From the NCBI RefSeq assembly GCF_022758885.1, contig NZ_JALEBH010000001.1, positions 2,318,501 to 2,382,500 of the forward strand: a DNA stretch of 64,000 bases, given 5' to 3'. Positions 7,116 to 34,128 of the stretch are shown piece after piece. The notes under the pieces are model-generated. The model saw only the letters and a program-made list of their open reading frames with translations. It searched no databases and was not told the DNA's origin. How positions within the stretch are numbered: position 1 is the first letter of the stretch; each line of letters opens with the position of its first letter. The position numbers and the translations under genes were made by a program. Source of the stretch: Sphingobium sp. BYY-5 (GTDB lineage Bacteria; Pseudomonadota; Alphaproteobacteria; Sphingomonadales; Sphingomonadaceae).

Positions 7116-7127
7116 GCCGACCAACAG

Positions 7128-7397
7128 GGTCACAGGTCCAAAGTTCACACCGTTGCAGGCATCGGTTTTCCGGGCATTTCCGGGGGATTCGCGACAGGAA
7201 TGCGCCGCCGATGCGTCGCCGACGCGCCATTGGCGCGCCTGTAGGGTCACACCGACGCGCCGCCCGCGCGACAGGGACGCGACAGGCGGGTCACAGTTGC
7301 GCGCCGGTGCGGCGGTGATCGGCAGGGGAGGGCGGGTGCGGAGGGCGTGCTGGTCCATCGACAAGGATAGATCAGAAGAAATCCTACATTGGAAGGG
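7128..7397 (+). repeat. Array A: eleven phased 11-bp repeats in a 270-bp intergenic element
   Basis: From 7187 to 7307 the sequence divides into eleven consecutive 11-bp units with no gaps (121 bp). Column by column the consensus is NNRCGCGMCRS; the G at position 5 and the C at position 9 are present in all eleven. A leader block lies to the left (GGTCACAG at 7128-7135 and AAGTTCACACCGTT at 7141-7154), a G-rich tract to the right, and a closing 19-base block AAATCCTACATTGGAAGGG at 7379-7397. A second copy in the opposite orientation is at 33854-34128. No protein or CRISPR architecture fits. Function unknown. Confidence 0.85.
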
Positions 7398-7480: not shown

Positions 7481-7511
7481 AGATGGGTTCCCGCCTGCGC
7501 GGGAACGACGG
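7481..7511. repeat. REP hairpin (same family as the repeats around the GIY-YIG gene)
   Basis: Reads AGATGGGTTCCCGC, then a short loop, then the complementary GCGGGAA and CGACG. It matches the 30-bp REP at 17268 and 17650 apart from loop and a few flanking bases. A looser palindromic repeat with a GCCGAACTTGTTT half and a GAAACAAGTTCAGGG half follows at about 7545-7660. Together they fill most of the gap before the next gene; no coding potential is supported between 7398 and 7690. Confidence 0.75.
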
Positions 7512-7690
7512 AGAGGGGTGGTTTCCTGCCATTTCCCATTCGTCATGCCGAACTTGTTTAGCTGCGCTGGCCTTACGGCTCAGCATCCATCAGGTCCAAC
7601 AAACCTTCGCTCAATCCGGCGAAATGGACCCTGAAACAAGTTCAGGGTGACGATGAAGGTTAGGTCCGCCTTTGGTCGTTCGTTGACCAA

Positions 7691-33853: not shown

Positions 33854-34128
33854 CCCTTCCAATGTAGGATTTCCTCTGGTTTATCCTGTCGGATGGAACA
33901 GCCTTCTCCCGCTCCCGCCATCCCCCTCTCCCCCAGCCGCGCGTCCGCCCAACTGTCGCGCAGGTGGCGCGTGCGTGGCGCGCTACTGGCGCGTCGGTGT
34001 CGCCCATTCGTCGCGCTGCTGGCGCGTCGCGGTAGCGTTCCTGGCGCGTCCCCGGCGCATTCCTGTCCCGATTTCCGCGAATCGCGCCAAAAAATTTCCC
34101 GGAACGGTGTGAACTTCTGGCTGTGACC
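33854..34128 (-). repeat. Array B: second copy of the phased 11-bp repeat element
   Basis: On the minus strand this repeats the plan of array A: GGTCACAG (34121-34128) and AAGTTCACACCGTT (34103-34116), then eleven gapless 11-bp units at 33953-34073 with G at position 5 and C at position 9 in every unit, then a G-rich tract, then the same 19-base block AAATCCTACATTGGAAGGG (33854-33872). Total 275 bp against 270 for array A. The first two units are alike in both copies; later units have diverged while keeping phase. It ends 63 bp before hisC. Confidence 0.85.

Follow-up and report, generated by a model that had tools for sequence, protein, structure and literature searches.

A dispersed chromosomal element of Sphingobium with phased 11-bp units and a linked small helix-turn-helix protein as a candidate operator system

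A 270-bp intergenic segment at positions 7128-7397 of the window (a 64,000-nucleotide stretch of the Sphingobium sp. BYY-5 genome, contig NZ_JALEBH010000001.1, positions 2,318,501-2,382,500) is, judged by its sequence, a gene-less, minus-strand copy of an element that is dispersed over the chromosome. Alignment shows two kinds of copy in the same genomes, with both ends in common, one of which contains a gene for a helix-turn-helix (HTH) protein of about 100 amino acids. The preferred reading, to which a probability of roughly 0.6 is given, is that the arrays of 11-bp units in these elements are operators arranged on one face of the helix, which would be bound cooperatively by the cognate HTH protein acting in trans. 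The small protein probably sits on the repeats, and the two would then make up a new module, pairing repeat and protein, in Sphingobium and several related bacteria.

The array of the window copy occupies positions 7187-7307 and divides, as the sequence-only reading had described, into eleven gapless 11-bp units without a phase slip, with G in column 5 and C in column 9 of all eleven. Dinucleotide shuffling of the array, repeated 20,000 times, never reached its summed column information of 10.25 bits and never gave two invariant columns; when the entire 270 bp was shuffled, 0 of 1,000 sequences matched either the information or the two invariant columns at any offset. It had been considered at that stage that shuffled sequence might give equally long arrays with two invariant columns, or that the plan might be absent from other genomes; shuffles yield no such arrays, and elements of the same plan are present elsewhere. 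In a scan of periods from 7 to 18, only 11 stands out. When 352 kb of sampled sequence from this genome was scanned on each strand, in-phase chains of at least seven units turned up four times, always at a known copy, and control steps of 10, 12 and 13 bp produced in this sample a single chain of at least five units, which has five. Within the window the chain detector picked out the 7187-7307 array together with that of another copy, at about 33955-34058. A CRISPR array is ruled out, in agreement with the earlier view, by units that are gapless, degenerate and 11 bp long and come without unique spacers of constant length. No named family was found for the element here either, and no published description of it was found in the open-access full-text literature, a search to which subscription papers were mostly outside scope.

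Read on the minus strand, the element consists of a promoter-like block, an ATG located 5 nt after the hexamer TATCCT, the array, and an end block. In the window copy the promoter-like block (CCCTTCCAATGTAGGATTTCTTCTGATCTATCCT) lies at 7364-7397, with its -10-like TATCCT at 7364-7369; on the minus strand the block is CTTCCAATGTAGGATTT..TCTGATCTATCCT, then 5 nt, then ATG. The conserved ATG (7356-7358) is followed by a variable segment (7308-7355), the place taken by the HTH gene in gene-bearing copies elsewhere, and then by the array, whose minus-strand unit core is mostly G[TG]CGC or GTGAC. A spacer (7156-7186) separates the array from the 17-bp end block, CAACGGTGTGAACTTTG on the minus strand (7139-7155; G000:C1:2325639-2325655), which is conserved among copies. 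Beyond it, at 7127-7136, a lone minus-strand site resembles a unit (of GTCAC type when read on the plus strand), and trailing unit-like sites are found in other copies. The claim that the array lies between conserved ends is upheld with two refinements: the ends differ in kind, and the minus strand is the better one on which to read the element. A second gene-less copy is present in the window on the plus strand (33859-34118), with the promoter-like block at 33859-33887, the ATG at 33893-33895, the array at about 33955-34058 and the end block at 34102-34118.

The ATG follows TATCCT by 5 nt in all 69 distinct elements with both ends recognisable, of which 43 are gene-less and 26 gene-bearing (copies with worn ends left out, and the 43 including orthologues from several genomes). 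A hexamer at this distance would place the start of transcription at or next to the ATG, which suggests a leaderless transcript from the element's own promoter-like block. The array has no fixed phase with respect to the end block.

A BLAST search of the 270 bp against its own genome (4.70 Mb, two contigs) gave 21 matches, and a 3'-block pattern with up to three mismatches was found at 16 places, with none for the reversed control. Counted by either end, copies with an array number about 20, with gene-less and gene-bearing copies in a ratio of roughly 9 to 1. When aligned, the copies follow a single plan, with trailing units in many of them, then the end block, spacer, array, variable stretch and a block of about 30 bp. 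Among the 30 own-genome loci listed for the end block at up to one mismatch, an array is present at 16 and missing at 14; for exact end blocks the figure is 13 of 17, the array-less ones being L166, L167, L169 and L179. Because arrays are missing at many end blocks, end-block counts overstate the number of copies, and the per-genome counts given below are of end blocks, not of elements. Several array-less loci appear by eye to be coding sequence. The elements occur, again by eye, in two settings, past the stop codon of a gene running towards them or upstream of a gene of the same direction, so no single neighbour relation explains them.

Two copies in this genome contain the HTH gene between the ATG and the array, with products of 91-100 amino acids. 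One is located at G000:C1:1961431-1961730 on the minus strand, and the match of the other at C1:2753066-2753299 on the plus strand. In a first set of 31 HTH loci the promoter-like block precedes the ATG in all 31, and 30 have a downstream end block 62-339 bp past the stop codon, the value of 339 belonging to L101, a locus broken by a TGA; L117 is the one without an end block. The array of gene-bearing copies lies mostly past the stop codon. In a larger set, unit-like sites were found at 70 of 71 loci (all except L204; the single unit listed for L101 is not from its array), and these 70 include 69 with a promoter-like match, loosely defined by up to five mismatches, and 62 with an end block. 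The HTH frame of L101 (genome G046) is interrupted by the TGA, for which the locus was omitted from one set, and its array and end block are still there.

The HTH domain resembles the DNA-binding domains of phage small terminases, over positions 14-81 of 180, with protein residues 18-82 matching positions 19-81. Membership in the terminase small subunit family was rejected on domain content, the match ending near position 81 and the protein itself at about residue 100; Pfam Terminase_2 remained below the cut-off. A Pfam scan of two members matched other HTH families, MerR not among them, and HTH domains are the sole matches of the protein, with no catalytic domain. A structure model (mean pLDDT 72) contains four helices (25-38, 41-48, 52-62 and 66-83) and no strand, and a Foldseek search gave no significant match (best E 0.96).

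An exact 3'-block scan of GTDB genomes returned 17 stretches, 16 titled Sphingobium and one MAG. The HTH gene was identified (E 1e-15) in 39 of 94 genomes of the genus, in which the median number of exact end blocks is 13 (0-26), compared with 0 (0-8) in the 55 genomes without it. At least four exact end blocks occur in 35 of the 39 HTH-bearing genomes versus 2 of the 55, and the reversed pattern gave none in all 94. Departures from this pattern are G067, with 8, and G064, with 5 at 60% completeness, which both lack the gene, and G019, G033, G070 and G088, which have it with 0-1 end blocks. The one to three end blocks of HTH-less genomes may be lone array-less sites. The link between the HTH gene and copy number is confounded by descent.

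The locus of the window copy, located after the same lipoprotein gene, was surveyed in the closest 30 of 89 genomes with a match, and an element is recognisable there in 20 of 22 HTH-bearing genomes and in 0 of 8 without the gene. It is absent in G015 and G054, G014 has no promoter block, and G041 and G029 have no standard chain. The tree of the upstream DNA contains only three changes of HTH status, which leaves the independent-pair test without power and makes the association at this locus suggestive rather than an independent proof. At a second locus, in the closest 30 of 92 genomes with a match, the element was found in 7 of the 21 HTH-bearing genomes and in none of the nine that lack the gene (one of these partly N); occupancy is thus patchy and turns over. 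Two observations by eye concern the window's locus. G057 retains what appears to be a decayed promoter block, and in L135 and L137 (G041 and G029), behind the lipoprotein gene, the motif is now of AAGCGCTCGCA / AGGCTTCCGCC type with the 11-bp step kept, a shift on which the standard motif search fails.

Across the Sphingomonadaceae, an HTH profile matched at least 244 of 397 genomes, with up to 12 candidates scored in each. Fifteen loci from other genera were examined. Three short closest homologues, from two genera, have arrays with chains of 9, 8 and 7 units and a similar start region, and all 12 longer HTH paralogues have chains of 1-2 only. The arrays at the short homologues indicate that the pairing of a short HTH gene with an array after it predates the genus. 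The combination of end block and array and the many gene-less copies were found only within the genus, the outside search covering the exact end block only; it gave one exact end block in each of 6 of 386 genomes, with 2 matches for the control, and the four of these six that were inspected by eye showed no array. At L131, L287 and L288, from other genera, TGTCCTAC or TTTCCTAC is seen by eye in the start region some 20 nt upstream of a hexamer similar to TATCCT, possibly a wider sphingomonad promoter form.

The 11-bp register is maintained across copies. A unit profile applied to the 43 gene-less elements identified 408 sites with 365 intervals, among which 194 measure 11 bp, 34 measure 22 bp, 8 measure 33 bp and 2 measure 12 bp, with no interval of 10 bp; intervals of 8 (23) and 14 (17) are, we think, mostly secondary matches inside units. 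Shuffled controls had 63 unit sites and no excess at 11 among the intervals listed. Gaps between eight pairs of related copies measure 11 bp in two pairs and 1, 3, 9, 10, 12 and 20 bp in others. Substitutions were counted in seven of these pairs, L135/L137 being left out for gaps, L001/L003 lying within one genome and L158 being used twice. Unit columns 4, 6, 7 and 8 have 11 substitutions in 224 positions compared with 69 in 392 for the other seven columns (odds ratio 0.24), a comparison with some circularity since the profile was trained on sequences including the tested copies. The promoter block has 10 in 231, the end block 6 in 119, and the rest outside the array 91 in 568. On these counts, the unit cores, promoter block and end block are shown to evolve three to four times slower than the rest. 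Changes are spread evenly over codon positions 1, 2 and 3 (61:57:57, eight pairs), indicating that the constraint acts on nucleic acid and not on a peptide.

The type of unit varies with the protein. The third helix, the recognition helix, begins at residue 52, which may be Arg, Pro or Ala, and GTCGC units account for 116 of 217 units in Arg-52 elements, 20 of 218 in Pro and 1 of 21 in Ala; five of the 70 rows, without a residue call, are outside the Arg and Pro counts, and the tree reads three of them as Pro and two as Arg. Twelve genomes contain both Arg and Pro types, and the Arg element is richer in GTCGC in 11 of them (the exception is G039), several of these comparisons resting on 1-3 units. 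A domain tree with residue 52 masked has five switches between Arg and other residues, poorly resolved, and one on supported branches. It included 63 of the 70 rows, without L101, L202, L213, L215, L216, L232 and L233 (three units or fewer each) and with L125, L127, L195 and L205 kept despite 2-3 units. The three arrays from other genera, all Arg, contain GTCGC units. The pattern suggests that unit type tracks residue 52, as direct recognition would predict; near relatives share both traits, and independent switches are few.

In the mechanism proposed, each 11-bp unit would take one protomer of the HTH protein made from gene-bearing copies. The protomers would line up head to tail along one face of the helix and bind cooperatively, both in cis and in trans at gene-less arrays. 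The complex, located just downstream of the element's promoter, would most likely hold this promoter and passing RNA polymerase in check; repression or a block of polymerase is the natural consequence of an array in this position, and this step is the least certain. Gene-bearing copies would thereby repress themselves, and gene-less copies would act as local transcription blocks. Cooperative binding on one face had been put forward in the sequence-only reading and stays as the best supported view of the repeats; the HTH gene, the promoter-like block with its ATG, and the link between motif and recognition helix had been missed. If correct, the proposal ties an abundant, unnamed intergenic repeat of Sphingobium to one specific small DNA-binding protein. 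The arrays would then form a natural series that runs from a few units up to about 12, keeps the exact 11-bp register and comes with variants of the recognition helix, in which cooperative recognition of direct repeats becomes testable. It also raises the question of why about 20 copies keep a promoter-like block and a start codon but no preserved protein. A bolder version, which we consider unlikely, is that the terminase-like HTH polymerises in the 11-bp register on the approximately 20 satellite arrays, giving chromosome-wide filaments that mark, insulate or organise the chromosome. A phage-type DNA-recognition module would in that case have turned into a host chromosomal one, with many arrays at conserved chromosomal sites and a short leaderless promoter for every array.

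The main competing explanation is that of a mobile or selfish element, in which the HTH gene with its ends would be the full-length form and the gene-less copies internally deleted derivatives, spread in trans and without host function. The two versions do have the same ends, gene-less copies outnumber gene-bearing ones about nine to one, copy number follows the presence of the HTH gene, and occupancy of the second locus differs between the close relatives G029 (occupied) and G041 (empty). The protein, however, matches HTH domains only and no catalytic one, no inverted repeat joins the two ends in the window copy, where this was inspected, and the window's locus is filled in 20 of 22 HTH-bearing genomes examined. 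The HTH match is also absent from plasmid and phage collections, which argues against spread by those carriers. In gene-less copies the core letters and the two ends are much better preserved than other parts, and such column-specific constraint argues against a purely inert passenger, not against past mobility. Loci without the element were seen at both surveyed sites and are too diverged to define insertion points. Taken together, a selfish origin of this kind appears possible, if doubtful.

Other explanations concern what is made from, or done to, the element. The promoter-like block and ATG, kept in 43 of 43 gene-less copies, would suit a small RNA whose 11-nt repeats fold or bind an RNA-binding protein; no Rfam family was found in the element (two sub-threshold matches lie outside it), the linked protein has an HTH of the DNA-binding type, and the strict 11-bp phase together with a motif that follows the recognition helix fits DNA, so that an RNA element seems rather improbable. 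Three units make 33 bp or 11 codons, and the array, translated from the conserved ATG, could in principle encode a peptide with an 11-residue repeat. The ATG frame of the 43 gene-less copies is indeed poorer in stops up to the end block (21 versus 47 and 47 in the other frames), with any stop before the end block in 10 of 43 copies versus 33 and 33, and 7 versus 13 and 14 stops in 15 own-genome copies, a deficit that operator arrays do not predict. Against a peptide stand the even codon-position changes, the varying reading frame of the end block among copies, the 11 of 43 copies that reach a stop within 37 codons, and the position of the array mostly after the stop codon in gene-bearing copies; this is the least probable of the explanations. 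Scarcely more credible is a relic of a small-terminase or pac-like module, in which the HTH protein would mark the arrays for packaging by a phage or gene transfer agent. The terminase match is partial (about positions 14-81 of 180, with Terminase_2 below the Pfam cut-off), tblastn at E 0.01 against 50,697 phage records found no match, and the SF6 domain, in the passages cited from PMC4737164, has little specificity for pac repeats.

Among known systems, ParR of plasmid R1 binds 11-bp direct repeats of parC cooperatively, and is a ribbon-helix-helix protein that works with an actin-like motor. The present element shares the 11-bp direct repeats, but its linked protein is all-helical in the model and matches HTH families, and it has about 20 chromosomal sites and is not on a plasmid. 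In RAYT-REP systems a gene family is accompanied by many gene-less intergenic satellites, as here; RAYT proteins are transposase-like and REPs are hairpins, whereas the linked protein in Sphingobium matches HTH families only. Terminal inverted repeats, as expected of a MITE or insertion element, were not found in the window copy. Full terminases possess, in addition to the DNA-binding domain, oligomerisation and C-terminal domains and a large-subunit partner. For a phage small terminase, the passages cited from PMC4737164 describe a pac site with direct repeats at the gene, and similar domains and direct repeats adjoining the gene are seen here; the difference is a chromosomal protein of about 100 amino acids with many satellites. 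The Streptomyces BldC protein, as described in the passages cited from PMC5859096, is a small, single-domain, MerR-like winged-HTH protein that binds cooperatively and head to tail on 9-bp direct repeats of varying number. It resembles the present case in its small DNA-binding protein and in direct repeats of constant orientation and register, but its sites are 9-bp repeats with an AT-rich core in promoters, rather than 11-bp units, and those passages do not describe dispersed satellites that carry the promoter of the gene. Winged-HTH directionality factors such as RdfS are also small and oligomerise head to tail along DNA; they serve excision by a tyrosine recombinase at attP, and no long phased downstream array appears in the passages cited (PMC11963761).

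Some further observations concern individual loci of the window's genome. L178 has an array and an end block (G000:C1:3248425-3248441) in which no promoter-like block was found, possibly a decaying copy. L186 and L187 form an array-less pair of end-block-like sites 46 bp apart, and the array-less end-block-like site L189 lies between groES-like and groEL-like genes, as read from translated ends. The segment 7026-7521 of the window and a segment at about 2316 kb of G000:C1 (L010, 1453-1948), inverted and about 9 kb away, are 99.8% identical over 496 bp, including the element and its flanks. Diverged elements are present by eye at both loci in other species (for example L045 and L043), which makes a recent gene conversion or duplication likely. 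L011 and the window copy have 291 bp in common at 87% identity. A short palindrome-like sequence, gggttcccgcctgcgcgggaacgacgg, is located at about 7485-7524 of the window, near the point where the identities of L010, L011 and L013 stop.
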